From Mycolicibacter minnesotensis (lineage in GTDB: Bacteria; Actinomycetota; Actinomycetes; Mycobacteriales; Mycobacteriaceae): a stretch of DNA of 64,000 bases. The stretch lies in the NCBI RefSeq assembly GCF_010731755.1, contig NZ_AP022589.1, positions 2,170,001-2,234,000 on the forward strand, read 5' to 3'. The notes under the pieces were generated by a model. The model searched no databases. It was not told the DNA's origin and worked only from the letters and a program-made list of their open reading frames with translations. The translations under genes and the position numbers were made by a program. Shown in pieces: positions 28,465 to 61,913 of the stretch (within the stretch, counting starts at the first letter, position 1; every line of letters begins with the position of its first letter).

Positions 28465-29700
28465 ATGTCAGCTCGTCGCCATCGTCTGGTGGGCGCCGTC
28501 GGTGCCGTGGGAGCCGTCCTGGCACTGGGTGCCCCCGCCCCTTCGGCTCAAGCCGACTGGGACGACCTGTTCCAGCCCTTCATCGACGCGATCAGCTGGG
28601 TCGACCCGGGCATCGCCGCTGACACCGATCCGGGTGCCGCGCTGGCCTCGTTGGACTCCCTGTTCAACGGCTGGTACCAGGACCTCATCTACACCCCCCT
28701 CAACAGCATTGCTCCGTGGCTGTTCGGATCGACGTTGGACCTGCCGGGCAGTGCCGCGGCCTACGGACCGGACACCCCGCTGGCCGACCTGCCGGACAGC
28801 TTCACCGTTCCGATGGACGTCAACCTCACCACCCAGCCGGTGATCAGCGTCTCGGTCGGTGGCGGCGCAGACGTCGATGTCCTGGTCGACACCGGTGCGG
28901 CAGGTCTGGTCGTGCCGATCTGGAACATCAACCCCTTCGGTATCACCGGCCTGCCCACCGGCTTCAACATGGGTCAGTTCGGTGGCGCACTGAACTACTT
29001 CTACGTGGAGCTGCCCACCACGGTCACCTTCACCGGCGAGGGCGGGGACACGCTGACCGCCGATACCACGGTGGACGCCGTGCTGTTCGCGTTCCCGTCG
29101 GATTTGAATCCCTTCGGCTCCTGGTCCATCGAGAGCTACCTGGCCGGCTCCTCCACCGGAATCCTGGGGATCGGACCGAACGCGCTCGGACCGACCCCCG
29201 ACCACATTCCGACCGCCGATCTGCCCGGCACCCTAGGCAACGGTGTGCTGATCGACCAGGCCAACAACCAGCTGATCTTCGGGAACAACCCGTATGAGGG
29301 CGGCACCGTGATCAACGGCGCGCCCTGGTCGCCCCTCTACGTAAGCATCAACGGCGCGCTACCCACCCAGGTCAACGGCGTCATCGACTCCGGTGGGGTC
29401 TTCGGCACCATGCCGTCATCGGCGCTGACCAACTCGGGTGTGACGCCGGTCAACGGCTACCTGCCGAACGGGACCCAGATCCAGGTCTACACCCCGTCCG
29501 GGCAGCTGCTGTACCAGTACACCGTCGGCAACACGCCCTACTCGGACAACCCGGCCGACGGAGCCGTGCGCAGCCCGTACGTCACCAACGGGACCAGCAT
29601 GAACACCGGAAACTGGCTGTTCGCCCAGGAACCGGTCTACATCAACTACCAGGTGCCCGGCGGGCAGACCATCGTCGGCGGCACCCTCATCGAACCCTGA
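28465..29700 (+). CDS. Secreted PecA-like aspartic protease without PE domain (copy 1)
   Basis: A 411-residue precursor with a signal peptide cleaved after about Ala30 (SAQA before Asp-Trp-Asp-Asp-Leu). The rest matches the retropepsin-like aspartic protease domain found at the C-terminus of PE_PGRS35/PecA, PE_PGRS16 and PE26. The two catalytic motifs are VDTGAAG and IDSGGVFG, and TGLPTGFNMGQFGG, ILGIGPNALGP and LPGTLGNGVLID are family landmarks. PecA trims PE/PPE-exported surface proteins; here the PE export domain is replaced by a signal peptide. GGAGGGG at 28453-28459 precedes the ATG. It is the first of a tandem pair. Confidence 0.88.
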   Translation: MSARRHRLVGAVGAVGAVLALGAPAPSAQADWDDLFQPFIDAISWVDPGIAADTDPGAALASLDSLFNGWYQDLIYTPLNSIAPWLFGSTLDLPGSAAAYGPDTPLADLPDSFTVPMDVNLTTQPVISVSVGGGADVDVLVDTGAAGLVVPIWNINPFGITGLPTGFNMGQFGGALNYFYVELPTTVTFTGEGGDTLTADTTVDAVLFAFPSDLNPFGSWSIESYLAGSSTGILGIGPNALGPTPDHIPTADLPGTLGNGVLIDQANNQLIFGNNPYEGGTVINGAPWSPLYVSINGALPTQVNGVIDSGGVFGTMPSSALTNSGVTPVNGYLPNGTQIQVYTPSGQLLYQYTVGNTPYSDNPADGAVRSPYVTNGTSMNTGNWLFAQEPVYINYQVPGGQTIVGGTLIEP

Positions 29701-29845
29701 TCCACCGACCCCGCTGAGCGGCCCCGCGAAATTTGGCGGTTTCTTGGGTGAATCCCCTGGTGTTCTGCGCCCTTGACTGGGTTAGCTGACGCCCTCGGTC
29801 GCGGCTCATCGGATGCCCGCGACCTCCTGCGGGGAGGTTCGGAAG

Positions 29846-31060
29846 ATGACGGCTCGTCGGTGCACGATCGGCGTCACGGCAGCGGCCGGGGTGCTGCTCA
29901 CCCTGGGGATCTCCGCTTCGCCGGCTCACGCCGACATCGATGATCTGTTCCAGCCCATGATCGACGTGCTCAGCGCGATGGACCCCGGGATAGCCGCAGA
30001 CACCGACCCCGGTACCGCGCTGGCTTCGCTGGACACGCTGTTCGACGGCTGGTATCAGAACCTCGTCTACACCCCGATCAACGACCTGGACCAGTGGATC
30101 TTCGGTGGAGCCGCCGACGCGGGCGTGGCAGGCAGTGCCGCTGCGTCGGGCTTGGCCGCCACGATCCCGGACACCTTCACCGTCCCCTTGCAGGTCAACG
30201 CGGCCACAGAGCCGGTGGTGGACATCTCGGTGGGTGGCGGGGCAGCGGTGCCCGTGCTGGTCGACACCGGCTCCTCGGGCCTGACCATACCGATCTCGGA
30301 CATCAACTGGGCCGGCATCACCGGCCTGCCCACCGGTTTCAACCTGGGCCAATACGGCGGCTCGCTGGACTACTTCTATGCCGAGCTCCCGACCACCGTC
30401 ACCTTCACCGACGCCGCCGGGGCCACCGTCACCGCCGATACCACCGTCGACGCGGTGCTGTTCGCCTTCCCTGCCGACTTCAACGTCTTCGGTCCCTGGT
30501 CCATCGGCGACTACCTAGGGCCGGCAAACGTGGACGGCGTACTGGGCATCGGGGCCAATGCTGTCGGTCCCAGCCCCGACAACATTCCCACCGCGGATCT
30601 TCCCGGGGATCTGGGCAACGGTGTACTGCTCGATCAAACCAACGGAGCGATGGTGTTCGGGGACAACCCACTGACCGGCGGGACCACGGTCGACGGGTCG
30701 CCCTACGCCACCCTCCTGGTGAGCATCGACGGCCAGCCACCCCAGTCCGTCAGCGCGGTGATCGATTCCGGCGGGGTCTACGGCACGATGCCGGCATCGG
30801 TGCTGGGCAACGTCACGCCGACCGCCGGCGGCCTCCTGCCGGACGGAACGACGGTTCAGGTCTACTCCGCAGACGGTTCGACGCTGCTCTACTCCTACAC
30901 GGTGAACTCGGCCGCCGCCGGCTCCCTGAGCCCGAGCGTGCTCGCCGGCAGTGGCGCCACGATGAACACCGGCAACATCCCGTTCGCTCAGCAGCCCGTC
31001 TATATCTCCTACGTCAACGGGTCCACCATCTTCGGCGGATCCAACGCGATCGAACTGTGA
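29846..31060 (+). CDS. Secreted PecA-like aspartic protease without PE domain (copy 2)
   Basis: A 404-residue paralog of the preceding gene, 145 bp downstream. The signal peptide ends at about Ala29 (PAHA before Asp-Ile-Asp-Asp-Leu-Phe). The protease motifs VDTGSSG and IDSGGVYG are complete, including the canonical DTGSS form. The segment between signal peptide and protease (DPGIAADTDPGTALASLD, then WYQNLVYTPIND) is strongly conserved with copy 1. GGGGAGG at 29831-29837 supports the ATG at 29846 rather than one at 29813. Target proteins are unknown; the PGRS-like proteins further on are candidates. Confidence 0.88.
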   Translation: MTARRCTIGVTAAAGVLLTLGISASPAHADIDDLFQPMIDVLSAMDPGIAADTDPGTALASLDTLFDGWYQNLVYTPINDLDQWIFGGAADAGVAGSAAASGLAATIPDTFTVPLQVNAATEPVVDISVGGGAAVPVLVDTGSSGLTIPISDINWAGITGLPTGFNLGQYGGSLDYFYAELPTTVTFTDAAGATVTADTTVDAVLFAFPADFNVFGPWSIGDYLGPANVDGVLGIGANAVGPSPDNIPTADLPGDLGNGVLLDQTNGAMVFGDNPLTGGTTVDGSPYATLLVSIDGQPPQSVSAVIDSGGVYGTMPASVLGNVTPTAGGLLPDGTTVQVYSADGSTLLYSYTVNSAAAGSLSPSVLAGSGATMNTGNIPFAQQPVYISYVNGSTIFGGSNAIEL

Positions 31061-31132
31061 CGTGACCTGCTGGAATACTGCTGATACAGGGTTGTGATCA
31101 GGAACCATTCTCAGTTCGGGGCCGAGAACAGA

Positions 31133-31138
31133 TACGCT
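31133..31138 (+). promoter_or_regulatory. -10 element TACGCT of ttfA
   Basis: TACGCT ends 7 nt before the ATG at 31146 with no ribosome site, predicting a leaderless transcript. Confidence 0.45.
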
Positions 31139-31145
31139 AGGCGCA

Positions 31146-32030
31146 ATGGTCCCGCTTTGGTTTACGCTGTCCGCGCTGTGTTTCGTCAGCGCGGCCGTAT
31201 TGCTGTACGTGGACATCGACCAGCGGCGCGGCCGCAGTCGGCGCCGCAAGTCCTGGGCTCGCTCCCACGGTTTCGACTTCGAGCCCGAATCCGCTGAGAT
31301 CCTGCACCGCTGGAAGCGCGGCGTGATGTCGACGGTGGGCGAAGCGCCGGTGCGCAATGTCGTACTCGGCCAGATCCGCGGCGAAGCCGTCTACATCTTC
31401 GATCTGGACGAAGTGGCGACGGTGATCGCGCTGCACCGCAAGGTCAGCACGAACGTGGTCGTCGACGTGCGGCTCAAGGGCCTGAAAGAACCGCGCGAGA
31501 ACGACATCTGGTTGCTCGGCGCGATCGGCCCGCGGATGGTGTACTCGACCAACCTCGACGCCGCCCGGCGGGCCTGCGACCGGCGAATGGTGACATTCGC
31601 CCACACCGCCCCGGACTGCGCGGAAATCATGTGGAACGAGGCGAACTGGACGCTGGTGAGTATGCCCGTCACCAGTACCCGCGCCCAATGGGACGAGGGC
31701 CTGCGCAGCGTCCGCCAATTCAACGACCTATTGCGGGTGCTGCCACCCAACCCACGCAGCCAGCCCGCCGACGCCGTTGGCGCCTCAGCGGGACGGCGCA
31801 ACGGGCAGCCCAGCCGGCCGCTGGGGTCAGCGGGCGCCACCGAGGCGTCCGAGGACAGTGCGGGTGAGCAGGTTCCGGCGGCGGCATCGCGGCCGGCCGC
31901 GTCGGCACCGGGCGGTCCCGCCCCGGCGGCCGAACCGCTGCCACGGCGCCGGCCGAGCCGGGAGTCTTCGGACGTGCTGCACGCCCCGGGTGGCCGCAAC
32001 GGTCGGCAGACCGCCCACCACCAGCGCTGA
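31146..32030 (+). CDS. ttfA: TMM transport factor A (TtfA, Rv0383c ortholog)
   Basis: A 294-residue protein with one N-terminal membrane helix (LWFTLSALCFVSAAVLLYV), a conserved cytoplasmic domain to about residue 200 (SWARSHGFDFEP, VYIFDLDEVATVIAL, NEANWTLVSMPV) and a low-complexity Ala/Pro/Arg tail. By memory it matches Rv0383c, which works with MmpL3 to export trehalose monomycolate to the outer membrane. It lies upstream of pyrE as in H37Rv, with an SDR gene between. The ortholog call rests on domain pattern and neighbourhood. Confidence 0.85.
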   Translation: MVPLWFTLSALCFVSAAVLLYVDIDQRRGRSRRRKSWARSHGFDFEPESAEILHRWKRGVMSTVGEAPVRNVVLGQIRGEAVYIFDLDEVATVIALHRKVSTNVVVDVRLKGLKEPRENDIWLLGAIGPRMVYSTNLDAARRACDRRMVTFAHTAPDCAEIMWNEANWTLVSMPVTSTRAQWDEGLRSVRQFNDLLRVLPPNPRSQPADAVGASAGRRNGQPSRPLGSAGATEASEDSAGEQVPAAASRPAASAPGGPAPAAEPLPRRRPSRESSDVLHAPGGRNGRQTAHHQR

Positions 32031-32062
32031 CGGCCGACGCCGGTCCACACTGGCGGCTTCGT

Positions 32063-32068
32063 TAGGCT
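32063..32068 (+). promoter_or_regulatory. -10 element TAGGCT of the SDR-pyrE unit
   Basis: TAGGCT ends 7 nt before the ATG at 32076 and there is no ribosome site, so the SDR message is predicted to be leaderless. Confidence 0.5.
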
Positions 32069-32075
32069 GTCCGTC

Positions 32076-32852
32076 ATGTCTCGCCCCGTTGCCGTGGTCA
32101 CCGGACCCACCTCCGGGCTGGGAGCGGGCTATGCCCGCCGCTACGCCGCTGACGGCTACGACGTGGTCCTGGTATCTCGCGATGTCGATCGCCTCGAAGC
32201 GCTGGCCGCCGAGCTTCGCGGCAGCTACGGCGGAGCCGTCGAGGTGCTGCCCGCCGACCTGACGGACGCCGACGGCCGTGGGCGAGTGGCCGAGCGCCTA
32301 CACGCCGGAGTGCGGGTGCTGGTCAACAATGCCGGCTTCGGCACGTCCGGGGAGTTCTGGACCGCCGACCCCGCTCTGTTGCAGTCGCAACTGGACGTCA
32401 ACGTCACCGCGGTCATGCAGCTGACCCGGGCCGCGCTGCCCGCGATGATCGAGGCGGGTGGCGGCAGCGTCATCAACATCGCCAGCGTCGCCGGGTTGCT
32501 GTCGGGACGCGGCTCGACGTACTCGGCGTCCAAGGCCTGGGTGGTGTCGTTCACCGAAGGCCTGGCCGGCGGCCTGCACGGCACCGGCGTCGGCATCCAC
32601 GTCGTCTGTCCCGGCTACGTCCACACCGAATTCCATGAGCGCGCCGGAATCGACATGGCCACCTTGCCGTCGTTTATGTGGATGGAGGTCGACGACGTCG
32701 TTACGGCGAGCCTGGCCGACATCGCCCGGGGCGAGGTGGTCAGTGTGCCCGGCCTGCAGTACAAGACATTGGTAGGCGTCAGCAGGTTGATTCCGCGCGG
32801 ACTGTCGCGCACGCTGACCAACACGTTCGGGAGGGGCCGTGGCCGCACTTAA
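32076..32852 (+). CDS. Short-chain dehydrogenase/reductase
   Basis: A 258-residue classical SDR. The cofactor motif TGPTSGLG is at residues 10-17, NNAG at about 87-90, and the catalytic Ser plus YSASK come later. Arg35 (LVSRD) suggests NADP preference. It is probably a lipid or ketone reductase; the substrate is unknown. Its 3' end overlaps pyrE by 14 nt, so the two are cotranscribed and translationally coupled. Confidence 0.9.
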   Translation: MSRPVAVVTGPTSGLGAGYARRYAADGYDVVLVSRDVDRLEALAAELRGSYGGAVEVLPADLTDADGRGRVAERLHAGVRVLVNNAGFGTSGEFWTADPALLQSQLDVNVTAVMQLTRAALPAMIEAGGGSVINIASVAGLLSGRGSTYSASKAWVVSFTEGLAGGLHGTGVGIHVVCPGYVHTEFHERAGIDMATLPSFMWMEVDDVVTASLADIARGEVVSVPGLQYKTLVGVSRLIPRGLSRTLTNTFGRGRGRT

Positions 32853-33387
32853 CAACGACGAACGCCAAGAGCTGGCCGCGCTGGTGCGTGAGCTCTCGGT
32901 GGTGCACGGCCGCGTGACGCTGTCCTCGGGGGCCGAAGCCGACTACTACGTGGACTTGCGCCGCTCCACCCTGCACCACCGTGCGGGCGCCCTGATCGGG
33001 CGGCTGGTGCGTGAACTCACCGACGATTGGAACTATGTCGCCGTGGGCGGCCTGACGCTGGGTGCGGACCCAGTGGCGACCGCGGTGATGCACGCTCCGG
33101 GACGTCCGATCGACGCATTCGTGGTGCGCAAGTCGGTGAAAGCCCATGGCATGCAACGTCTTATCGAAGGCTTCGACGTGGCCGGTCAACCGGTGCTGGT
33201 GGTCGAGGACACCAGCACCACTGGTGGTTCGGCGTTGACGGCGGTGCGTGCGGTGCGTGAGGCCGGTGGGCAGGTGGTCGGTGTGGTCACCGTGGTCGAC
33301 CGTGCCACCGGAGCGGCCGAGGCCATCGAGGCCGAGGGCGTGCCGTACCGCAGTGTGCTCGGGCTGGCCGAACTGGGCCTGGGCTGA
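32839..33387 (+). CDS. pyrE: Orotate phosphoribosyltransferase PyrE
   Basis: A 182-residue enzyme making orotidine monophosphate from orotate and PRPP in pyrimidine synthesis. The PRPP-binding loop VLVVEDTSTTGGSA is intact, the N-terminal LSSGAEADYYVDLRR binds substrate, and RKSVKAHG holds the flexible catalytic loop lysines. The GTG start at 32839 has GGGAGGGG upstream and lies inside the end of the SDR gene. An Rv0381c-like gene follows, the same partner as in H37Rv. Confidence 0.96.
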   Translation: MAALNNDERQELAALVRELSVVHGRVTLSSGAEADYYVDLRRSTLHHRAGALIGRLVRELTDDWNYVAVGGLTLGADPVATAVMHAPGRPIDAFVVRKSVKAHGMQRLIEGFDVAGQPVLVVEDTSTTGGSALTAVRAVREAGGQVVGVVTVVDRATGAAEAIEAEGVPYRSVLGLAELGLG

Positions 33388-33404
33388 ACGCCCCGAGGAC
33401 GGTT

Positions 33405-34307
33405 GTGCGCAGACTGATCGCGATGATGGCGGCGTTGGCCGTGACCTGCGCGGCCGCCTGCTCGGATTCCGCCGCAACCGGGCCCTACGGCGCCCAGGGA
33501 GCCCGGATCGATTCGGCCCTGACCGTGCTGGGCTGGGAGATGACCGTCTCCAACCTGCGCTGGGAAGTCGACTACGCACTGATCGACGTCACGGCTCAGG
33601 TCGTCGGCGCCCCGAATGCCCCAGCTCCACACGCCGCGGCCGGCGACCTGCGATTCGGGGTGTATGGCACCCCCGCGCATCCGATCGAGGCCACGGGCCT
33701 GGGCAGCTGCGCCTTGCTGGGGGAGTTGACGCCGACGCCGCTGTCGGCCAAGGACCCCGACCGGTTGAACGGAACCGTCTGCCTGGGGCCACTCAAGGAA
33801 CGCAGTGCCGTGCGTGGGGTCTATGTCTATTCGCCCGCAGACCGGATCAAAGACACCACGGTGGCCTATGCCGCGGCGTTCCCGGTGGGGCTGGCGCCGG
33901 TCAACCCGGGAGACACCGGTCTGCAGCTCACCACTCAAGGCGTGGCGGCCTACCGGGCCGACGGCATGCCGCTGGCGCCGACGGCCCTGGGTGATCCCAA
34001 GGCGTTCACCGGCCTCGGTTATATGGTGCTCAATCTGTCTGCTGACGCGGTGGCAGGCCATTACCTCGACGGGGCTAAGGCACGTGGCGGACCGCTGATG
34101 CTGGTCGCCGGACCGTCGACGCCCATGCCCGGCTTGGGCGCGGATTGTCGCGCGGCCGGCTCCTCGGTCCTGATCCTGCCGGAGGCGACGCTGAACTCGG
34201 TGCACGTACCGACATCGCTGTGCACGCACGGCGAGATCAACTCCGCCCTGCTGTACCCCTCGGTGTCGGTGGTAGGCACCCACGCCGCCGTGTGGACCAC
34301 TTCGTGA
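33405..34307 (+). CDS. Exported protein, possible lipoprotein (Rv0381c-like)
   Basis: A 300-residue protein with an N-terminal signal (MAALAVTCAAACSDS). Cys19 sits in a weak lipobox (AAAC), so lipid anchoring is possible but uncertain. The mature part is rich in beta-type sequence (MTVSNLRWEVDYALIDVTAQ) and includes four more Cys residues. No enzymatic motif is seen. Its position between pyrE and the SpoU methyltransferase matches Rv0381c. Its stop overlaps the next start (GTGA). Confidence 0.78.
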   Translation: MRRLIAMMAALAVTCAAACSDSAATGPYGAQGARIDSALTVLGWEMTVSNLRWEVDYALIDVTAQVVGAPNAPAPHAAAGDLRFGVYGTPAHPIEATGLGSCALLGELTPTPLSAKDPDRLNGTVCLGPLKERSAVRGVYVYSPADRIKDTTVAYAAAFPVGLAPVNPGDTGLQLTTQGVAAYRADGMPLAPTALGDPKAFTGLGYMVLNLSADAVAGHYLDGAKARGGPLMLVAGPSTPMPGLGADCRAAGSSVLILPEATLNSVHVPTSLCTHGEINSALLYPSVSVVGTHAAVWTTS

Positions 34308-34960: not shown

Positions 34961-34976
34961 GGCAGGATCTAGGGCC

Positions 34977-51779: not shown

Positions 51780-54767
51780 TCAGCTTCCGCCGTCAGAACT
51801 CGCGCTGGGCACCCCGGGCGCTCCCGGGGTGCCATCGGCTCCGCCGTTGCCGCCGGCCCCACCGGCCGCTCCGGCCACGCCGTCGGGCTCGCCGTCGGCA
51901 CCGTTGCCGCCGGCCCCACCGCGACCGTTGCCGCCCGCGCCGATCTGACCACCGTTGCCGCCGTCGCCGCCCGCGCCACCGGCACTGCCAGGCCCGGTCT
52001 CGGTGGCGTTCGTGCCATTGCCGCCGTTGCCGCCGGTCCCGCCGTCGCCGCCCTTGACCGCCCCTACGCCGGTGCCGCCTGCGCCGCCCTTGCCGCCAGC
52101 TCCGCCTGCGCCGCCGGGGACGGTGGTGCGCTCGGTGGTCTCGTCAGCGGGCGTGGTGTAGTCACGGCCGCTGGTGCCGGCGTTGCCGCCGGTGCCCCCG
52201 TTACCGCCGGTGCCGCCGTCCAGCCCGGTGCCACCGTTGCCGCCGGCGCCACCCTGGACAGTGGTGCTGGTGCCGCCGGTGCCGCCGTTGCCCCCGGTAC
52301 TGCCGGTACCGATTCCGGCACCGCCATTTCCTCCGGTGCCGCCGGCGACGCCACCGGTCAGCGAAGCCGCGGAACCGCCCTGGGCGCCGGCCCCGCCGGT
52401 GCCTCCGGTGCCGCCGTTGACTCCGGTGCCACCGGTGCCACCGGTGCCGCCGACGGCTTCGGTTCCGCTGCCCCCGGCTCCGCCGTCGCCACCTGTGCCG
52501 GCATTTCCGGCGCCGCCACCGCCGCCGCCACCGCCGCCGCCCGAACCTGTCTCCGGCCGGGTGCCGCCGTTCAGGAGGGTCTCGAAAGCGTTGAAAAGGC
52601 CACCCAGGCCGACGGCTCCGGTACCGCCGGACCCGCCCTGCCCGGCGACTCCGCCGTTGCTGCTGCCCCCGGCTCCGCCGGCTCCGCCATTGCCGCCGCC
52701 GCTGCCGAAGAGAGAGCCCGTCCCGCCCGTTCCTCCGGCGCCGCCGTACCCGGCAGACGCACCGTCGGTGCCGTCGCCGCCCGTCCCACCGGTACCGCCA
52801 TTGCCTCCGGTTCCGGAGAAGAGGCCGCTAGAAGCCCCGTTTCCGCCTGTTCCGCCGTTGCCGGCCAGGGCGTCGGTGCCGCTGGCATCGCCGCCGTTAC
52901 CTCCCGCGCCGCCGCTGCCGGTGGCACCTGAGCCGCCCAGCAAGCCGCCGCCGCCGCTGCCGTCGCCGCCCGTGCCGCCGCTGCCGGCCAGGCCCTCGGG
53001 CCCGCTGACGTCTCCGCCCGCTCCGCCGGCGCCGCCGTCTGCGCCGCTACCGCCGAAAATCGAGGTGATCGAGCCGAAGAGGGGATTCTCCAACACTCCG
53101 GACGTAGCGGCGAGCCGGTCGATCTGGGCCTGGATTTCCTCGGGCGTTTTGCCGGAGAGGACCGAGAGCTGCCTGAGCGCTCCGCCGAACTGCTCGGGCG
53201 AGCTATAGACACCGCCGAAAGAACCGGCGTTACCGCCGTCACCGCCGCTGCCCGCCGTGGCACCGGTGCCGGTGCCGGCACCGCCCGTTCCGCCGACACC
53301 TCCGGCGCCGGCAGTACCGCCGCTGACGATGGCGCCCAGCCCGCCAGTGCCACCGTCACCGCCCGTACCGGCGACGCTGTCGGCACCGGTGGCAGCGCCG
53401 CCGGTGCCGCCGGTCCCGCCGTTTCCGCCCTGCCCGCCGAACAGGAACCCGCCGATACCGCCGAAGCCACCCTGGCCGCCCGCGCCGGCAGTGCTGCCGC
53501 CACCGACTGCGGCGCCGCCGGTGCCACCGCCACCGCCCGCACCGCCGTTGCCGCCGAAGATGGCGAAGGCAGTGCCGCCTTGACCGCCGACGCCGCCGGC
53601 TCCTGCGAGGGCGTCGTCGCCGTCAACGGCGCCGCCGGCCCCGCCCTGGCCGCCGGCGGCGCCGGTGCCGCCGAACAGTGAGAAGGTCCCGCCGCCCATT
53701 CCGCCGTTGCCGCCGGCGCCGCCCGCCTCGGTGGCGTCACCGCCGGTGCCACCGGCACCGGCCGCCCCACCGGTCACTCCGCCGAATCGCGCCCATGACA
53801 GGCCGCCGTCGCCGCCGGTGCCGCCGACTCCACCGGTCAGGCCGGCGCCCCCGGCCCCGCCGTTGCCGCCGGCGCCGCCGATCTTGAACAGTTCAGCTCC
53901 CAGCGATGGTCTCGAACCTTCGTCCGTCGGTCCGTTGGCGACGGGGACACCGCCGTTGCCGCCGTTGCCGCCGGCCCCGCCGATTCCGTCCAGTGCGTCG
54001 CCGCCGGCACCGCCGTTGCCGCCGAAACCGCCTACGGAGAACCACATTCCGGCCGCGCCGCCGCCGTCGCCGCCGTCGCCGCCGATTCCACCGACCAGGC
54101 CCTCGCCGCCGTCACCTCCGGCGCCGCCGAACCCGATCAGCGCACCGCTGATGCCGCCGTCGCCGCCATCGGCGCCGGCCCCGCCGATTCCGCCGGCCCC
54201 GCCATTGCCGAACCAGACCGCTGCGCCGCCGTCTCCGCCGGCCACCCCGGCGATGTCGGCGTCATAACCATTACCGCCATCGCCGAACAGCCAGCCACCC
54301 GTGCCGCCATTGGGGTCGATCTCGGTGCCGTCGACGCCATTGCAGATCAGCCCGCACACCGCGCCGGAGGCGAACAGGGGATTGATCAGATCGCCAACCT
54401 GCTGCCCGAAGGAGCTGGACATCCAGTCCTGCATGCCGGTGTGCAACTGCAGATAGAGGCCCTGGGTGAAGTCATCGAGGCTGAATGCCGAGTAGTCGGC
54501 CGCGCCCACGCCGTCGAACCAGGAGGACAGGTCGCCCAGGCCCAGGGCGGTGGGGTCGAACACCGCGGTGCCGATCTCGGTGAAAAATCCGGTGTCTGAC
54601 CAGTTGGCCGGGTCGAACCAAAAACTCGGGTCGAGCAGGTCCTCCAAGTCCGCGTTGGCGGTGGGCGCCAGCCCCAGCGGGCTCACCCCCAAGGCCAGAA
54701 CGGCCGCCGCGGCGCCCGTCACCAGGCCTCGACGACGACGGTGAGCGGTGCGGTGTTGACGCGACAT
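51780..54767 (-). CDS. PGRS-like Gly/Ala-repeat protein with signal peptide and no PE domain (protein 1)
   Basis: A 995-residue protein. A basic N-terminus (HRRRRGLVTG) and hydrophobic core form a signal peptide cleaved after about Ala39 (TANA before Asp-Leu-Glu-Asp-Leu). A unique domain of about 120 residues follows, ending GVDGTEIDPNGGTGGWLFGD; it contains CGLIC, possibly a disulfide. The rest is GGxGG-type PGRS repeat, broken near residues 516-569 by a helical insert (SPEQFGGALRQLSVLSGKTP and on). The last part includes DYTTPADETTERTT and ends DGGS. PGRS modules normally follow a PE domain exported by ESX-5; here a signal peptide takes its place. Surface location is inferred. Confidence 0.85.
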   Translation of the reverse strand: MSRQHRTAHRRRRGLVTGAAAAVLALGVSPLGLAPTANADLEDLLDPSFWFDPANWSDTGFFTEIGTAVFDPTALGLGDLSSWFDGVGAADYSAFSLDDFTQGLYLQLHTGMQDWMSSSFGQQVGDLINPLFASGAVCGLICNGVDGTEIDPNGGTGGWLFGDGGNGYDADIAGVAGGDGGAAVWFGNGGAGGIGGAGADGGDGGISGALIGFGGAGGDGGEGLVGGIGGDGGDGGGAAGMWFSVGGFGGNGGAGGDALDGIGGAGGNGGNGGVPVANGPTDEGSRPSLGAELFKIGGAGGNGGAGGAGLTGGVGGTGGDGGLSWARFGGVTGGAAGAGGTGGDATEAGGAGGNGGMGGGTFSLFGGTGAAGGQGGAGGAVDGDDALAGAGGVGGQGGTAFAIFGGNGGAGGGGGTGGAAVGGGSTAGAGGQGGFGGIGGFLFGGQGGNGGTGGTGGAATGADSVAGTGGDGGTGGLGAIVSGGTAGAGGVGGTGGAGTGTGATAGSGGDGGNAGSFGGVYSSPEQFGGALRQLSVLSGKTPEEIQAQIDRLAATSGVLENPLFGSITSIFGGSGADGGAGGAGGDVSGPEGLAGSGGTGGDGSGGGGLLGGSGATGSGGAGGNGGDASGTDALAGNGGTGGNGASSGLFSGTGGNGGTGGTGGDGTDGASAGYGGAGGTGGTGSLFGSGGGNGGAGGAGGSSNGGVAGQGGSGGTGAVGLGGLFNAFETLLNGGTRPETGSGGGGGGGGGGAGNAGTGGDGGAGGSGTEAVGGTGGTGGTGVNGGTGGTGGAGAQGGSAASLTGGVAGGTGGNGGAGIGTGSTGGNGGTGGTSTTVQGGAGGNGGTGLDGGTGGNGGTGGNAGTSGRDYTTPADETTERTTVPGGAGGAGGKGGAGGTGVGAVKGGDGGTGGNGGNGTNATETGPGSAGGAGGDGGNGGQIGAGGNGRGGAGGNGADGEPDGVAGAAGGAGGNGGADGTPGAPGVPSASSDGGS
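51795..54290 (-). repeat. PGRS-type GGxGG coding repeat, protein 1
   Basis: Dense GC-rich repeats encoding Gly-Gly-x-Gly-Gly-x, with x mainly Ala, Asn, Asp or Thr. Non-repeat breaks occur near 53060-53220, about 53880-53940, about 52560-52600 and about 52120-52170. Confidence 0.9.
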
Positions 54768-54902
54768 GGGGGCCTCTCAGCGGGCGGTCGCGGCGACAGC
54801 GCCGAACCGGATCAGGGGTCTGTGATCCGGAATTTACCGTAACTTAAGCATGTCTGCAGGGTGCTGACTGGCCGCTGCCGGTGACTTCGAAGGTGCAGGC
54901 GG

Positions 54903-56444
54903 TTATTGCGCGTCCTGCTGTGGTGAAAGCCTCTCGCGGAGCTGGTATTTCACCACTTTGCCGGACTGTGTCCGGGGTAGGGCGTCGATGAACTCCAGCC
55001 GGATGGGCAACTTGAACGCCGCGAGTTTGCCGCGAGCGTGGTCGCGCAACTCCTCGAGTTCCAACGACGCGCCCGGGCGTAGCGCCACCACCGCGGTCAC
55101 CGCCTCACCCCACTTCTCGTGCGGGGTGCCCAGCACCGCCACCTCGGCCACGGCAGGATGCCCGTACAGCACGTCTTCGACCTCGGCGGGATAGACGTTC
55201 TCGCCGCCTGAGATCACCATGTCCTTCACCCGGTCGAGCACCCAGATGTAGCCCTCGTCGTCGGCCTGCCCGATATCACCGGTGTGAAACCAGCCCTGCG
55301 CGTCGATCACCGCGGCGGTGGCCTCGGGGTTGCGCCAGTAGCCGGCCATCACCTGCGGCCCGCGTACGCAGATCTCCCCGCGTACGCCGGCCGGTACCGG
55401 CTGATTGTCGATATCGACGAGCCGCACATCCGACAGTGGCAGCACCTGATTGCCCGCGGCACCGATCTTCACGCCGACCTCATCGGTGCGCAGCACCAAG
55501 GCCAGCGGCGCGGTCTCGGTGAGCCCGTAGCCCTGGGCGAACGGAATGCCGCGATCGCCGTAGAGCCGGATCAACGGTTCGGGCACGGGGGCGCCACCGC
55601 AGACGAAGTTGCGCACGCTGGACAGGTCGGTGTCGGCGAACTCCGGCCGCTGGCTCATGAACAGAAACATCGCCGGGACCCCGAACATGGTGGTGATCCG
55701 GTGCTCGGCGATCAGCCGGAGCGCCTCGGCGGGGTCGAAGGTGGGCATCAGCACGATCTGCCCACCCTTTTGCAGGGTGACCAGCGTGGTGACGTTGAGG
55801 CCGCCGATGTGAAACAGCGGCGCGCAGACCAACGACACATCATTCTGGCTGGTGTCGAACGTCAGCAGCGCATTGACGTTGTTCCAGAACAGGTTTGCGT
55901 GGGTGAGCATGGCCCCCTTGGGGTGCCCGGTGGTGCCGGAGGTGTACATGATCACCGCGATGTCGTCGGGGTCGGCGAACACCGGCTCGGCCAATGGAGC
56001 GCGCTGCGCCAGGAGCTCATCGAGCACCTCCGTGCCCGTTACGGGGTCGAGGGCGATCAATCGTTGCAGCCCCGCCTCCGCGCGCACCGGATCGATCACC
56101 GCCGCGCGCTCGGCGTCGGCGATCAGGGTGTGCACCTGCGCATTGCCCAGGATGTAGCCGAGTTCGGCGGCGGTCAGTCGCCAGTTCAGCGGGACGAAAG
56201 ACGCCCCGATCCGGGCGGCGGCGAACAGTGTCACCAGGAAGTCGGGGTGGTTCAGCCCCGCGTAGCCGACTCGATCTCCGCGCTCGGTTCCCCCGGCGGT
56301 CAGCTCGGCCGCCAATCGGTCTATCCGATCGGCGAAATCGCGGTAGTTCCAGGTTGTCTCACCGAAGGTGATGGCCGGAAGCAGCGGCGTCGCCGCCGCC
56401 CGCCGGGCGATCCAGGAGCCGAGGTCGATCGGGGGTGTCTGCAC
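54903..56444 (-). CDS. Acyl-CoA synthetase (FadD-type AMP-binding ligase)
   Basis: A 513-residue adenylate-forming ligase. The P-loop-like motif IMYTSGTTGHPKG is intact, as are QGYGLTETAPLAL, GWFHTGDIG, the hinge region LDRVKDMVISGGENVYP, and the C-terminal catalytic Lys in PRTQSGKVVKYQ. It activates a carboxylic acid to acyl-AMP and then to acyl-CoA. A class I fatty acid or aromatic acid substrate is possible. The GTG at 56444 is chosen from a TAGCGT -10 element 7 nt upstream; the open frame extends far upstream without a start signal. Confidence 0.92.
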   Translation of the reverse strand: MQTPPIDLGSWIARRAAATPLLPAITFGETTWNYRDFADRIDRLAAELTAGGTERGDRVGYAGLNHPDFLVTLFAAARIGASFVPLNWRLTAAELGYILGNAQVHTLIADAERAAVIDPVRAEAGLQRLIALDPVTGTEVLDELLAQRAPLAEPVFADPDDIAVIMYTSGTTGHPKGAMLTHANLFWNNVNALLTFDTSQNDVSLVCAPLFHIGGLNVTTLVTLQKGGQIVLMPTFDPAEALRLIAEHRITTMFGVPAMFLFMSQRPEFADTDLSSVRNFVCGGAPVPEPLIRLYGDRGIPFAQGYGLTETAPLALVLRTDEVGVKIGAAGNQVLPLSDVRLVDIDNQPVPAGVRGEICVRGPQVMAGYWRNPEATAAVIDAQGWFHTGDIGQADDEGYIWVLDRVKDMVISGGENVYPAEVEDVLYGHPAVAEVAVLGTPHEKWGEAVTAVVALRPGASLELEELRDHARGKLAAFKLPIRLEFIDALPRTQSGKVVKYQLRERLSPQQDAQ

Positions 56445-56451
56445 TCGAAGA

Positions 56452-56457
56452 ACGCTA
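56452..56457 (-). promoter_or_regulatory. -10 element TAGCGT of the FadD-type gene
   Basis: On the minus strand TAGCGT is followed by 7 nt and GTG at 56444. The spacing fits a leaderless transcript and supports the chosen start. Confidence 0.5.
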
Positions 56458-56567
56458 ACCCCGGCGGTGTCGGGGCGTGTGCGGTTCGCGGTACGCGCAG
56501 CGGGATCCATCGAGGACCGATCAGACCTGCGCTGTAGCGCACAAACGGTCGATGGCAGGCTAAACCG

Positions 56568-57683
56568 GTGCCCGGTTCGATCTGCGACATTCTGCCCTCC
56601 ACGGCCGCACTGCTCGGGGCTCCGGACGCAACCGACACACTCGGCCTGCGTGAGAGTGTCGGGGACGTGCGGCGAGTGGTGTTGGTGCTGGTCGACGGGC
56701 TGGGCTATCACCTGTTGCCGCAACTGACCCGCGATGCGCCGCTGCTGGCCTCGGCGCTGGCCGGCACCACCGGGCACCTGAGCGAGCTGTCCTGCACCTT
56801 CCCCTCCACGACGCCCACCAACCTGGTTTCGCTGGGCACCGGCGTGCCGCCCGGTGAGCACGGTGTGCTGGGTTTCACCGTCAACATTCCCGGAACCGAG
56901 CAGGTGCTCACACACATCTTCTGGGGTGATCAGCCCTCGCCCACGGTGTGGCAGCCGGTGCCCACCTGGTTCGAGCGGCTGCGTGCCGCCGGAGTGGGCG
57001 CCCGCGCCGTGCTGCCAGAACTGTTCGTGGGCAGCGGCCTGACCGAGGCTGCCTATCGCGGCGCGGAGTTCTGCCCGGTGGGCAAGGGTGAGTCCTATGC
57101 GAGGCGCGTCGTGGCCGAACTGGCCTCGCCGGGCCTTGTCTACGCCTACACCGCCGCCCTCGACAATGCGGCACACGCGTCGGGCGTCGGCTCAGCGCAC
57201 TGGCACGCCGCTGCCGCCAGGGTCGATGCCCTGCTGGAGCATCTGCTGACAAACCTGCCCGACGACGCGGCGCTGGTGGTCACCGCGGACCATGGCGGGA
57301 TCAACGTGCCCGACCGGGCCCGCATCGATCTGGACGCCGATCCGGCGCTGAGCGCCGGCATTCGGGTGGTCGCCGGCGAGCCGCGGGTCCGCTACCTACA
57401 TACCGAACCCGGCGCCACCGCAGATGTTTTGGCGGTCTGGACCGAGCGTCTGGCCGGTCGGGCAGTGGTCCAAAGCCGCGAGCAGTTGGTTGACTCCGGG
57501 GTGTTCGGGTCGGTGCCCCAACGGCATCTGGCGCGTATCGGCGACGTCGTGGTGACCTGTACCGGCGACACCGCGATCCTGGCGAGCAAACACGAGCCCC
57601 CGCAAGCGTCGGCGCTGGTGGGCTTCCACGGTGCGCTGACCCCAGCCGAGACAGCGATCCCGCTCATCGTCTTCTCTCGTTGA
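56568..57683 (+). CDS. Alkaline phosphatase-superfamily phosphodiesterase/nucleotide pyrophosphatase
   Basis: A 371-residue protein of the type I phosphodiesterase/nucleotide pyrophosphatase family. Metal-site residues occur in VLVLVDGLGYHLL, the nucleophile region is CTFPSTTPTNLVSLGTG, and VTADHGGIN plus a late FHGALTPAE carry further metal ligands. No signal peptide is seen, so it is probably cytoplasmic. The phosphoester substrate is unknown. The stop codon begins a third copy of the TGACTCTGCGC element. Confidence 0.87.
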   Translation: MPGSICDILPSTAALLGAPDATDTLGLRESVGDVRRVVLVLVDGLGYHLLPQLTRDAPLLASALAGTTGHLSELSCTFPSTTPTNLVSLGTGVPPGEHGVLGFTVNIPGTEQVLTHIFWGDQPSPTVWQPVPTWFERLRAAGVGARAVLPELFVGSGLTEAAYRGAEFCPVGKGESYARRVVAELASPGLVYAYTAALDNAAHASGVGSAHWHAAAARVDALLEHLLTNLPDDAALVVTADHGGINVPDRARIDLDADPALSAGIRVVAGEPRVRYLHTEPGATADVLAVWTERLAGRAVVQSREQLVDSGVFGSVPQRHLARIGDVVVTCTGDTAILASKHEPPQASALVGFHGALTPAETAIPLIVFSR

Positions 57684-57699
57684 CTCTGCGCTGACGGCG
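57680..57699 (+). repeat. TTGACTCTGCGCTGACGGCG element, copy 3
   Basis: This 20-mer contains the phosphodiesterase stop codon, as in copy 1. It matches the left arms of the palindromes at 36090 and 37925. No good complementary arm was found downstream, so this copy looks like half of the element. Confidence 0.6.
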
Positions 57700-57836
57700 T
57701 CGAGTTCGCGCACTTTGGCGCTGTGGCGACCAAGAGATCTTTTCCGCCGGTGAGGATTCGTTAACGTGCGCGTAACCTGAACTTCTGATAAGACTTCGTT
57801 ATCCACAGGTTGAACTTAGAAGCAGGGGTAGCTGTG

Positions 57837-60800
57837 ATGGCCGGTCGTAAGTCGAAGAAGCGTGGTGGCGTCACCGCAGGTACCGCAGCATCCATCGGTG
57901 CTTTTTTGGCGTTCGGGGTCGCCCCGATCAGCGCAGCGCCGACGGTGCACGCGGATGTGCCGGCCCTTGACTGGCTAGTCGATGTGGTTGACCCGGTGAC
58001 GATGGCCGGGGCGGCCGATGCCTCGACGGCGATCGACGTGGGCTCCTGGCTTTCCCCTCTGGATCTGAACTGGATGGCTCCGTCATTCTGGGATCACCTG
58101 CTGACGAGCAGCAGCGAGTCTTGGTGGGCTTTGCCGGGCGCCGGCGACGCTTTGCCGGCGACGGACTGGGTCGAGGTTCTTAACCAGTGGATCTATCAAC
58201 CTTGGTATTCGTCCATGCAGGATTGGTTCCGTAGCGATCTAGGTCAGGCTGTCAGCGGATTCGTGAACCAAGCCAGCGGCCGATACCTGATCGGTGACGG
58301 GGCTGATGGCACCGTGGACAATCCCGACGGCGGTAGCGGCGGATTGTGGTTCGGCGACGGCGGCGACGGTTTTGGTGCCAGCGGTAACGGAGGGAACGCG
58401 GGCTGGTTCTTCGGCAACGGAGGTGACGCCGGTAGCGGTACCGACACGGCTGTGGCGGGCGACGGAGCCGGGGAGCAGATGTTCGCCGCAGCTCGGGTTG
58501 CTCCGATTGACGGGGCGCCGGGACGTGGCGGCGATGGAGCCTTCCTGTTCGGCAATGGTGGCAACGGCACCAATGGTGGCGATGGTCAATTCGGCGGTAA
58601 CGGCGGTGCCGGTGGTGCCGGTGGTGCTGGTGGCTGGATCTGGGGTGCGGGCGGAGATGGAGGCCGGGGCGGAAGCGGATCAGCGGCCGGGGACGGTTGG
58701 GGCGCTGGCCAGGGTGGCTCCGGGGGCACCGGCGGAGCGGGCGGCTTCCTGTTCAGCAACGGCGGCCGCGGTGGCGCCGGAGGCTTGGGCGGCAACGGCA
58801 TGGCGGGCTCGGCCGGCACCGCGGGCAGCGCGGGAGGGTCGGGGTCGGATGCCGGTACTGGTGGTGTCGGGGGTACTGGTGGCCGCGGTGGACTCTTGTT
58901 CGGTTCCGGCGGTTCCGGCGGCTCCGGCGGCGCGGGTGGCGTTGGCGGCGCTGGCGGCGTCGGCTACACCGCAGCTGCAACCGCATACGGCATCAATGGA
59001 GGCAACGGCGGCGATGGTGGCCATGGCGGTACCGGTGGTGTCGGCGGAGGCGCCGGGCAAGCCGGGCTGTTCGGGGGAGCCGGTAGCAGCGGTGTCGGCG
59101 GGCAGGGTGGGGCCGGCGGCAACGCCGGCGTAGCTGGTGACGGCACAGCAGGTCGTGCTGGCGATGTAAGCAACCGCGATGGCGGCGACGGTGGCCGCGG
59201 CGGCAACGCTGGACTAGCCGGTCAGGGCGGGCTTGGCGCAGGCGGTAGCGCCAACGGAACTACCGGATTAGCGGCCACCGGTGGGGGCAATGGCGGAGCT
59301 GGCGGCGCTGGTGCCGCCGCAACCACGGCCGGGCAAACCGGCGGTGCCGGCGGCCGCGGAGGGGACGCCGGTGCGACTGGCATTGGTGGGCGCGGCGGTG
59401 ACGGCGGCGCTGGATTCGCCGGCAAAGCGGGCAGCGCTGGCGCACCCACCGGGTCTTCGGGCAGCAATGGCGGGGCTGGCGGGGCCGGTGGCGCGGGCGG
59501 CTCGGTGTCGGGCAATGGCGGTGCCGGCGGCAATGGTGGCGCCGGCGGTGCCGGCGGTAGTGGGGTCAACGGCGTCAACGGTGCGGTGGGCAGTTTCGCC
59601 GGTGGTGGCACTGGTGCCGGTGGTGACGGCACCGCCGGCGGTAGCGGTGGCAATGGCGGCAATGGTGGTGCCGGTGGCGTGGGTGGTACCGCTACCGCTG
59701 GCACCGCTGGAGCCAATGGCGCTGGTGGTGTCGGTGGTGCGGGCGGAAACGCAGGGGTGGCGGGTAACGGCGGAAACGGCGCCGATGGCACCGCCGCGCA
59801 TGTCCACGGTGGTGCCGGTGGGCGTGGTGGTGACAGTGCGGGAGTGGGGTCTGGTGGGCAAGGCGGCTTGGGTGGTGATGGTTCCACCCGGGCTGCCGGG
59901 GGCAATGCCGGAACGATAAGCGGCGGTAACGGCGGTAGCGGCGGCAAGGGGTACACCGCCACGATTGCCGGTGCCACGGGCGGTAACGGCGGTAACGGCG
60001 GTGGGGCTGGCAGCCACGGCACGGGCGGCGCGGGCGGCGCGGGCGGCAATGGCGGCGCCGGGACGGCCGGGACTGCCGGCACCTCCACCCAGATCAACGG
60101 CGGAACCGGCACCGATGGTGGACGCGGTGGCAACGGCGGTAGCGGCGGCAAAGGTGGTGCGCTGAGCGGAAGCGGCGGTGTCGGTGGTGCCGGTGGGTCC
60201 GGCGGAACTGGCGGGACCGGCGGAACCGGCTACAACAACAACGGCGGTAGCGGTGGAGTCGGCGGCACCGGCGGTAAAGGCGGCGACGCCGGAAGCGGAG
60301 GAACCGGTGGTGCTGCGGTAGCAGCCACGGCCACGGGCGGGGTCGGCGGAGCAGCCGGTAACGGTGGGGTCGGCGGTACCGGCGGCACGGGTGGTCAGAA
60401 CCCAGTGGGTGATTCGGGCGGCAACTCGGTCAACGGGGTCCTCGAGCGCGCCTTCGGAAACGTCGGTGGTACTGGCGGGACCGGCGGCGCGGCCGGCCAC
60501 ATCGGCGCCGGCGGCCTCAACGGGGCCGGCGGCCATGCGGCCAGCGGAGCACGCGGTGTCGGCGGTGATGGCGGTGTGGGCGGTGCTGGTGCCGCGGGCC
60601 TGAACGGCGCCGGAGGTATCGGCGGCACCGGTGGAACAGGTGGCATGGGTACCGATGGCGGGAATGCCGGCGCGGGCGGCCGCGGCGGTAACGGCGGCAC
60701 GGGTTCTGCCTTCGGCATGAATGTGACCGGAGGCAGCGGCGGTGCCGGTGGCGCAGGCGGTGCTGGTGGCCAGAACGGGCCGGGCTACGGCGGCGGAGGC

Positions 60801-61913
60801 GGCGGAGGCGGCGGTGCCGCGGAATCCGACTGGGGCAAGGCGACCGGAGGCGCCGGGGGTAGTGGCGGCGCCGGGTCGGGGACTGCCGCTGGCGGCCATG
60901 GCGGGGTGGGCGGCCGCGCATCCGTAGCCGCGGCCGACGGCACTGCCACTGGCGGTGCCGGGGGCCGCGGGGGCGATGGGACAGCGTCGGGGACCGGCGG
61001 CGCGGGTGGCTCGGGAGCCGAGGCGAGAAGCAGCGGATCCGGGCGCGGAACCGTGATCGGTGGCGCCGGGGGCAATGCCATCGGGACCGGCAACGGCGGA
61101 GTAGGGGGTACTGCCTATCAAACCAACACCACCACCAGCAACGTTGGAACGATCGTCACCGGTGGCCGTGGCGGCGACGGAATCGACGGTGGAATTGGCG
61201 GTGCCGGCGGTTATGTGTACATGACGTACACCAACAGCACCAACAGCACGTTCACCGGCGGCGACGGCGGCAGCGGTTCTGGCGGCAGCGTCGGCGGTGA
61301 GGGCGGCGATGTCTACTACAACGGCTCGAGCAGCAGATATGGCGAGGTCACCAACAGCACTTTCCTCGGTGGTGCGGGCGGTGATGGTGGTCGAATCGGT
61401 GCCAATGGCGGAATTGGTGGTAACGGTGGACACGGCGGAAGCGTCAACCCGTTCACCGCTCCAGGTGGAACAAGTGTCGTCGTTGATCGCGCGAGCGCGA
61501 CCGGTGGCGCGGGCGGCGATGGTGGTGCTGGCGGCAACGGAGCCAGAGGCGGCTGGGGCGGTGCTGGTGGCGGGGCCCCGGTCCTGCGAGGTTCAACGGG
61601 TGCGGTCGGGGTCGGCGGTGCGGGCGGTGCCGGTGGTGCTGGGGGCAACGGCGCGGTCGGCGGCAACGGCGGCGACGGTGGGTACGGTGTCGCCGCTGTT
61701 CGACAGGCAGGGATCGGTGGTGCCGGCGGCGCTGGTGGCGCCGGCGGTGCGAGTGGACCCGCCGGCGATGGTCGCGGTGGCAACGGTGGTGGCGGCGGCG
61801 ATGGCGGGATGACCAATGTCGGTGGGACCGGTGGAAACGGCAGCAATGGCAACGCCGGTAAATCCGACGGCACACGTGGAACTGATGGGTTCCGTGGCCC
61901 CAGCCGGCCATAG
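57837..61913 (+). CDS. PGRS-like Gly-repeat protein with signal peptide and GRYLI motif, no PE domain (protein 2)
   Basis: A 1358-residue protein. Basic start MAGRKSKKRGG and a hydrophobic core form a signal peptide cleaved after about Ala39 (TVHA before Asp). A unique Trp-rich domain of about 110 residues follows (PSFWDHLLTSSSESWWAL; YSSMQDWFRSDLGQAV), ending GRYLIGDGADGT at about 148-159. This matches the GRPLI linker (TGRPLIGNGANG) that joins PE and PGRS regions in PE_PGRS proteins. About 1180 residues of GGxGG repeat come next, with a Tyr/Thr/Asn-rich interruption near residues 1095-1180. Cell-wall location is inferred. AGCAGGGG lies upstream of the ATG. Confidence 0.85.
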   Translation: MAGRKSKKRGGVTAGTAASIGAFLAFGVAPISAAPTVHADVPALDWLVDVVDPVTMAGAADASTAIDVGSWLSPLDLNWMAPSFWDHLLTSSSESWWALPGAGDALPATDWVEVLNQWIYQPWYSSMQDWFRSDLGQAVSGFVNQASGRYLIGDGADGTVDNPDGGSGGLWFGDGGDGFGASGNGGNAGWFFGNGGDAGSGTDTAVAGDGAGEQMFAAARVAPIDGAPGRGGDGAFLFGNGGNGTNGGDGQFGGNGGAGGAGGAGGWIWGAGGDGGRGGSGSAAGDGWGAGQGGSGGTGGAGGFLFSNGGRGGAGGLGGNGMAGSAGTAGSAGGSGSDAGTGGVGGTGGRGGLLFGSGGSGGSGGAGGVGGAGGVGYTAAATAYGINGGNGGDGGHGGTGGVGGGAGQAGLFGGAGSSGVGGQGGAGGNAGVAGDGTAGRAGDVSNRDGGDGGRGGNAGLAGQGGLGAGGSANGTTGLAATGGGNGGAGGAGAAATTAGQTGGAGGRGGDAGATGIGGRGGDGGAGFAGKAGSAGAPTGSSGSNGGAGGAGGAGGSVSGNGGAGGNGGAGGAGGSGVNGVNGAVGSFAGGGTGAGGDGTAGGSGGNGGNGGAGGVGGTATAGTAGANGAGGVGGAGGNAGVAGNGGNGADGTAAHVHGGAGGRGGDSAGVGSGGQGGLGGDGSTRAAGGNAGTISGGNGGSGGKGYTATIAGATGGNGGNGGGAGSHGTGGAGGAGGNGGAGTAGTAGTSTQINGGTGTDGGRGGNGGSGGKGGALSGSGGVGGAGGSGGTGGTGGTGYNNNGGSGGVGGTGGKGGDAGSGGTGGAAVAATATGGVGGAAGNGGVGGTGGTGGQNPVGDSGGNSVNGVLERAFGNVGGTGGTGGAAGHIGAGGLNGAGGHAASGARGVGGDGGVGGAGAAGLNGAGGIGGTGGTGGMGTDGGNAGAGGRGGNGGTGSAFGMNVTGGSGGAGGAGGAGGQNGPGYGGGGGGGGGAAESDWGKATGGAGGSGGAGSGTAAGGHGGVGGRASVAAADGTATGGAGGRGGDGTASGTGGAGGSGAEARSSGSGRGTVIGGAGGNAIGTGNGGVGGTAYQTNTTTSNVGTIVTGGRGGDGIDGGIGGAGGYVYMTYTNSTNSTFTGGDGGSGSGGSVGGEGGDVYYNGSSSRYGEVTNSTFLGGAGGDGGRIGANGGIGGNGGHGGSVNPFTAPGGTSVVVDRASATGGAGGDGGAGGNGARGGWGGAGGGAPVLRGSTGAVGVGGAGGAGGAGGNGAVGGNGGDGGYGVAAVRQAGIGGAGGAGGAGGASGPAGDGRGGNGGGGGDGGMTNVGGTGGNGSNGNAGKSDGTRGTDGFRGPSRP
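58320..61890 (+). repeat. PGRS-type GGxGG coding repeat, protein 2
   Basis: A 3.6-kb GC-rich repeat encoding Gly-Gly-x units, richer in Asn and Asp than an average PGRS. Breaks are minor except for the YQTNTTTSNVG and YVYMTYTNSTNST segments near 61110-61250 and the VVDRASATGGAGG region near 61470. Confidence 0.9.

Follow-up and report, generated by a model that had tools for sequence, protein, structure and literature searches.

PE-free PGRS proteins and PecA-type proteases with signal-peptide-like leaders in a Mycolicibacter-like mycobacterium

PE_PGRS proteins have been studied as hallmarks of pathogenic slow-growing mycobacteria, and their place at the cell surface is attributed to the PE domain and to ESX-5. 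Here we describe, from Mycolicibacter minnesotensis, PGRS proteins and PecA-type aspartic proteases with a signal-peptide-like leader in place of the PE domain. Four of them lie in a stretch of 64,000 nucleotides (contig NZ_AP022589.1, positions 2,170,001 to 2,234,000), hereafter the window, to which coordinates refer unless a contig or genome position is named. The closest described protease, PecA, is presented in passages of PMC6819658 as surface-associated and self-cleaving; the M. marinum enzyme was shown there to cleave PE and PE_PGRS proteins at the cell surface, the cut sites mapped in LipY lie between small residues, and the processing of PE_PGRS proteins was consistent with loss of a PE-sized part. 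According to a passage of PMC9436101, the proposed role of PGRS domains is to insert into the outer leaflet of the mycomembrane and to ship cargo, and a passage of PMC7550000 describes LipY as preceded by a PE domain, a PPE domain or a signal peptide, depending on the species. Section 7 of PMC11939664 mentions PGRS-domain proteins in M. smegmatis and in species related to it and terms their N-terminus 'questionable'; neither 'signal peptide' nor 'PecA' occurs in the main text of that paper.

The window proteases share with PecA (M. marinum MMAR_2933; M. tuberculosis PE_PGRS35) and with PE_PGRS16 (4EHC) the protease domain with its DTG and DSG motifs, as well as a small-residue stretch directly before the catalytic domain, but they lack PE, show a signal-peptide-like leader and a YxPL...W linker, and form a tandem pair. 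The PGRS proteins resemble PE_PGRS proteins in their repeats, in an IN..P...GRxLIG(N/D)G-like entry and in variable C-terminal cargo, whereas in this genome the 28 PGRS places are PE-less within 2 kb upstream, begin with a signal-peptide-like leader and include GH5 cargo. As with LipY, one body occurs with different export leaders by species (PMC7550000, same passage), although LipY is a single lipase and we are dealing with a PGRS repertoire and a protease family. The PGRS proteins of M. smegmatis and Mycolicibacterium, compared by their description in PMC11939664, likewise lie outside the usual PE_PGRS carriers; that section leaves their N-termini open, whereas leader, linker and spread are described here. 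Among open-licence PMC papers, no title or abstract of those listed describes Sec-led PGRS proteins (led by a leader of the general secretion, Sec, type), which is no proof of novelty, and no paper was found on PGRS with endoglycosylceramidase. We consider it probable that the window holds four members of a genome-wide, PE-independent PGRS/PecA surface system with exchangeable leaders in this Mycolicibacter-like mycobacterium.

The genome of the window (4.22 Mb) has 28 PGRS places (PF21526) and 13 PE places (PF00934). No PE place was found on the same strand within 2 kb upstream of any of the 28 PGRS places, and even with both strands considered the closest PE lies 32.5 kb off; with 0 of 28, a chance loss of PE from individual genes was ruled out. 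In the PE_PGRS-rich control genome G105, each of the 61 PGRS places is preceded by PE at a distance of at most 2 kb, in 53 cases of at most 300 bases. No PE was found within 2 kb upstream of the PGRS places of G387 (0/8), G339 (0/3) and G282 (0/4). PF00934 also gives a match in the E. coli control. The N-termini read at all 28 places show one leader type, VGAxxAVGAFLAFGxAPLxxAPxAxAD, and every one has A-x-(A/G)-(D/E) at residues 31-50, counted from starts picked by eye. A leader/linker profile was made from alignment A2, which comprises 27 of the 28 PGRS places (one near-copy dropped) and the window protein at 57837, the PGRS part being excluded. At E<=1e-6 it gave 42 matches in the genome and 56, 42, 32 and 42 in four relatives, counts that may include proteases (one match in the relative G022 is its protease).

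The original prediction had named two proteases and two PGRS proteins in the window, and all four open reading frames (ORFs) are present. Protease 1, the upstream tandem member (411 aa), is encoded at 28465..29700 (+ strand), with a signal-peptide-like leader ending AQA|D at 28465..28554 and the PecA catalytic domain at 28804..29667 (PF20729 residues 114-401). Protease 2 lies at 29846..31060 (+ strand; ORF open from 29813), with a leader ending AHA|D at 29846..29932 and the catalytic domain at 30179..31018 (PF20729 residues 123-402); its start is likelier at 29846 than at 29813, with GGGAGG upstream and close homologues beginning at 29846. The leaders of all four window proteins were taken from the translations. 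Both proteases were identified as PecA-domain proteins by NF038019 (342.8 and 336.7 bits, respectively; cut-off 150) and PF20729 (277.6 and 296.9 bits), the catalytic DTG and DSG were read in both, and protease 2 aligned with the solved PE_PGRS protease domain (PDB 4EHC) at E 8.6e-48. No PE match (PF00934, E<=1) was found in either. NCBI names such Mycolicibacter proteases 'PecA family PE domain-processing aspartic protease', and the PE part of this name does not fit PE-less proteins. An invariant GSA stretch separates the linker from the catalytic domain in all 18 aligned protease N-termini and is a possible self-cut site. PF20729 also matches in the control genome of Deinobacterium chartae, which places PecA-like domains outside the mycobacteria as well. 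A plasmid origin was considered and rejected: tblastn of protease 2 against plasmids returned a single 34.9% match, in a Mycobacterium riyadhense record.

The first PGRS protein (995 aa) is encoded at 51780..54767 (- strand) and matches PF21526 at 51.7 bits (cut-off 27). Its leader, ending ANA|D, is at 54651..54767 (- strand), and its PGRS domain starts at 54138..54347 (- strand) with the junction LICNGVDGT...GGWLFGDGG (PF21526 residues 141-210), the same place as in the genome search. The second PGRS protein, at 57837..61913 (+ strand), lies in an ORF open from TTG 57810, with the ATG at 57837 as the likelier start; its leader (57837..57953, + strand) ends VHA|D, and its PGRS domain starts at 58290..58469 (+ strand) with the junction YLIGDGADGT...GGLWFGDGG (PF21526 residues 161-220, sub-threshold). 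This protein scores 19.0 bits against PF21526, under the cut-off of 27, although PGRS repeats are obvious on inspection. The profile found the two proteins in the genome at E 1.4e-27 and 1.0e-37, respectively, each being itself a row of the profile. A PE match (PF00934, E<=1) was found in neither. Elsewhere in this genome a PGRS ORF reaches ~4,333 residues (L264, G000:C1:1600253-1614409), and an open frame of 5,634 aa in G016 partially matches the leader/linker front end.

In all four window proteins the original prediction had read a leader ending Ala-x-Ala followed by Asp. This stands for the AQA, AHA and ANA proteins and fails for the 57837 protein, which has VHA; Asp follows in all four. 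The translations agree with its further reading of Asp-x-(Asp/Glu)-Asp-Leu in three proteins (DWDDL, DIDDL, DLEDL) and Asp-Val-Pro-Ala-Leu in one (DVPAL), and the additional genes that it proposed to look for were found in number, the pattern being a family trait. With no unrelated exported proteins as background, A-D-x-(D/E)-D is present in 15 of the 28 rows of A2 (with L next in 5) and A-D-x-(D/E)-D-L in 17 of the 18 rows of alignment A3, which holds the N-termini of the two window proteases and of 16 from named relatives. As a pattern, the four window leaders follow that of signal peptidase I substrates (n-h-c regions, small residues at -3/-1), with Val at -3 in one. A lipobox-like pattern was seen in 1 of 166 N-termini (28 PGRS, 18 protease, 120 homologues), which does not point to lipoproteins. 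The Type VII signal of PE_PGRS proteins (YxxxD/E with WxG) did not emerge as a feature of these N-termini as a group: YxxxD/E is present in 5 and WxG in 11 of the 28 PGRS N-termini, and neither is present in the 18 protease N-termini. Small-residue pairs were considered as a predicted cut site and proved uninformative, as they occur in 28 of 28 N-termini and shuffles average 27.1. The motif PGxA is enriched, in 10 of 28 PGRS N-termini (against 1.3) and in all 18 protease rows (against 1.2), the latter being closely related.

The front ends of the two protein types share more than this pattern. The hhalign E-values given here are those of single comparisons. The N-terminal profiles of PGRS proteins and proteases aligned at E 1e-18 with the leader included, and with the leader removed 20 columns at WyQxLvYtPlhxxxxW still aligned at E 2.9e-6, against 0.38 for a reversed profile, 0.026 for the best of 20 column shuffles and 0.84 for PE. 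Linkers of GH5 fusions aligned with PGRS linkers at E 1.6e-16. At the other end of the linker, the motif IN..P...GR before the PGRS domain aligned between Sec-led proteins and 14 PE_PGRS loci of G105 over 24 columns (E 2.2e-5; the 14 include two second motifs within a PGRS domain and two identical loci). The strict GRPLI sequence of the l-GRPLI linker is mostly varied in Sec-led linkers. Judged by this segment, the protein body looks common from about there onward, with either a PE domain or a leader plus linker exchanged ahead of it. The linker was also considered as a hidden PE-like domain and rejected, profile comparison with PE giving E 0.84 and 0.26. At L117 and L118 (G239, G300) a YxPVH...W linker and PGRS junction stand behind a different, longer N-terminal part.

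Behind this front end the cargo varies. Among 32 fetched genome stretches, seven held an ORF with a non-PGRS tail of at least 90 residues, of which five were GH5 (PF00150 and PF18564), one DUF2599 and one the third PecA domain of the genome, which sits on a PGRS protein outside the window; this undercounts the tails, as three of the 32 stretches (L238, L241, L263) showed merely a cut neighbour ORF. The DUF2599 domain (PF10783) stands at the end of a Sec-led PGRS protein at G000:C1:2996454-2999042 (L254). PF00150 was present in 21 of 22 public relatives of the front end of the 51780-54767 protein, 18 of these 21 also having PF18564 and PF21526, or PF21526 alone.

To compare leaders on one kind of body, 128 distinct PecA-domain ORFs were taken from fetched loci, weighted to best matches and rich genomes (the 28 genomes that gave five or more leader/linker matches and E<1e-20). 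The 126 ORFs of at least 225 residues were labelled, some by PE and leader profiles and the others among them by eye: 47 leader plus linker, 29 PE, 3 PE plus long PGRS, 16 leader plus PGRS, 7 other leaders, 3 Ig-like repeats, 2 direct leaders, 1 PPE, 13 with a cut PGRS front and 5 truncated. D(T/S)G occurs twice in 125 of these 126 domains, the exception being a truncated one, and stricter patterns hold in 112 of 120 homologues. A PecA tree of 121 rows (truncated ones excluded) required at least 7 changes between PE and Sec, and 6 were obtained with 120 rows, one long-branch row being dropped and the Ig-repeat rows taken as Sec. A single clade for all 32 PE-led rows, a group named after the tree had been seen, was rejected by the approximately unbiased (AU) test (p-AU 0.0165). 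Leader-plus-PGRS proteases grouped with PE-plus-PGRS proteases (support 88, below star level) and apart from leader-plus-linker proteases. Judged from these sequences, PE and Sec-type leaders have been swapped several times on the same bodies. The tree was quick and without an outgroup, so it does not give the direction of change; we lean towards the Sec-led form as putatively the older. By eye, one PecA domain lies behind an apparent PPE domain (L083, G378), and three lie behind long repeats that look like the cadherin/Ig type (L072, L074, L207 in G373, G255, G234; genomes of 6.4-6.7 Mb).

Protease 2 has its best named relatives in Mycolicibacter (M. arupensis, 89% identity; seven other loci, 64-73%), and the tandem pair is present in 8 of 8 of these loci, which are not an unbiased sample because they were found by protease 2. 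Two neighbouring leader-plus-linker proteases are listed in 17 of the 28 rich genomes, G332 among them. The second tandem copy at G332:C36:539-1382 (L125, L186) consists of two overlapping pieces in different frames and is broken or misassembled. ESX-5, judged by EccB, is retained: the EccB at genome position 3814211 scored 785 bits against solved EccB5 and 279 bits against EccB3, and full-length counterparts of it are found in G105 (70% identity) and in every one of the 28 rich genomes (73-100%). An explanation of the PE-free state by a lost ESX-5 was thereby ruled out, and the Sec-type leaders do not seem to compensate for a missing ESX-5. Two ESX-3-like EccB genes, at G000:C1:2138077-2139531 and 84585-86024 (L040, L041; 625 and 631 bits to solved EccB3), suggest that the genome's ESX-3 locus is doubled. 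A short EccB of another type is located at G000:C1:1002537-1003589 (L044, L045; a 372-aa frame with ~100 profile positions missing), and similar frames are found in several relatives.

PecA and PGRS matches were then compared across 396 genomes of the genus, a set that includes incomplete genomes. The search thresholds were E 1e-3, 1e-6 and 1e-5, and at most 6, 10 and 14 candidates were scored per genome, so the results represent presence with possible misses and not counts. PF20729 was present in 153 of the 396 genomes; both PecA and PGRS were found in 138, PecA alone in 15, PGRS alone in 107 and neither in 136 (odds ratio 11.7, kinship ignored). All 28 rich genomes have PecA, and 24 of the 88 genomes with merely weak leader/linker matches have no PecA match. 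Hence PGRS proteins seem to manage without PecA in many genomes, and PecA rarely occurs without PGRS. The co-occurrence that the original prediction proposed to check was found as a positive association; strict pairing was not, given the 107 of 245 PGRS-positive genomes with no PecA match. Of the parallel that it drew to the PE_PGRS/PecA pathway, routed by Sec, the PE-free state of both protein types, the common leader and linker and the association with PecA hold up, while a four-gene set and a strict pathway do not.

How these proteins work together can be read in several ways. That the four window genes form a dedicated Sec-routed export and processing set appears very improbable to us: four genes of the right kind do lie in 33 kb, and 26.8-57.3 kb is colinear in G022 (a general colinearity), but when 29 PGRS genes were placed at random, two or more of them came within 33.4 kb of the protease pair with P = 0.075, which is not significant. 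Among the matches listed (to E 8.9e-17), the nearest leader/linker match to the proteases is ~78, ~112 and ~83 kb off in G292, G351 and G016, respectively. With 28 PGRS places, 42 leader/linker matches and a third PecA domain elsewhere, the four genes are not a special 33-kb set. In the genome-wide system that we prefer, the sequences support that PGRS proteins and PecA-type proteases alike bear the leader and YxPL...W linker instead of a PE domain; the linker of PGRS proteins joins the usual GRxLIG(N/D)GxDGT start of the PGRS domain, and the same front end also bears the GH5 (endoglycosylceramidase-like) and DUF2599 cargo. The proteins would cross the inner membrane by Sec, signal peptidase I would remove the leader, and the PGRS domain would seat the protein in the outer mycomembrane. 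Twin-arginine translocation (Tat) is an improbable alternative to Sec: early folding of PGRS domains might favour it, and RRx(hydrophobic)2 was seen in the N-termini of 3 of 28 PGRS proteins, 5 of 18 proteases and 28 of 120 homologues, but the motif is missing from most of these leaders.

A cleavable leader leaves no PE domain, and thus PecA's known task would be absent. By analogy with the cutting of PE proteins by PecA, the proteases might cut small-residue sites in their own and in PGRS linkers, a proposal that we put forward tentatively. Nearly even chances can be given to PE-free PecA proteases being surface proteases that act on other substrates or on themselves, with PGRS proteins unprocessed after signal peptidase and the co-occurrence due to shared ancestry and module mixing. 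The PGRS-positive genomes with no PecA match, the PecA domains behind PE, PPE, Ig-like repeats and several leaders, the lack of a PE domain for removal and the non-significant 33-kb placement all agree with this, whereas the presence of PecA in all 28 genomes with many Sec-led PGRS proteins, the mere 15 of 153 PecA-positive genomes with no PGRS match, and the leader and linker motif common to both protein types speak against it. As for ancestry, the PE-led form may have come first, with the Mycolicibacter lineage swapping PE for Sec leaders after having PE_PGRS proteins, a possibility that we take seriously without favouring it. Canonical PecA and PE_PGRS proteins use PE, and PE-led and Sec-led PGRS-PecA fusions group together at the support given above; against this, three tested lineages, whose ESX-5 EccB stands at roughly the same distance from the present one as that of the control (73-74% against 70% identity), likewise have PE-less PGRS, and the passage on M. 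smegmatis in section 7 of PMC11939664 also weighs against it. More doubtful is the wider proposal of an older, Sec-based display to which PE_PGRS/PecA belongs as one plug-in form, and in which the PE-free proteases of Mycolicibacter would trim the common linker of themselves and of some forty PGRS proteins. The core would then be a linker and PGRS body with bare PGRS, PecA, GH5 or DUF2599 cargo, PE domains would later have displaced the Sec leader on several bodies independently, and the linker would stand in for the PE domain as a tag common to enzyme and substrates.

Our preference for a genome-wide, PE-independent system needs to be read against several points. Export, cleavage and surface location of these proteins are predictions from sequence, and the leader assignment is based on a sequence pattern and a home-made profile. 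Tat-like RRx motifs are present in 3 of 28 PGRS and 5 of 18 protease N-termini, and 3 of the 28 PGRS N-termini combine YxxxD/E with WxG. The motif common to both types beyond the leader is short (20 columns), and the structure model of the PGRS front end is of low confidence (mean pLDDT, the predicted local distance difference test score, 46.7). The PecA tree is unrooted and quick, its labels are partly by eye and the clade in the AU test was named post hoc. Just one leader-plus-linker protease is listed in 11 of the 28 rich genomes, and the 107 of 245 PGRS-positive genomes with no PecA match count here as well.

The PGRS/PecA variant found here is larger than was first supposed, with the processing link as a prediction, and our results suggest that the PE tag is exchangeable for ordinary-looking secretion signals. 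They further suggest that counting PGRS proteins by their PE domains misses a hidden repertoire; a table in a 2025 review (PMC12209268) gives 0 pe_pgrs for two Mycolicibacter species, M. terrae (42 ppe, 12 pe) and M. engbaekii (26 ppe, 11 pe). A PGRS-rich relative that is PE-less in its 28 tested members and has kept EccB would allow tests of what PE contributes, and the same species would allow tests of the PGRS domain's own role and of the targets of PecA-type proteases where PE is absent.

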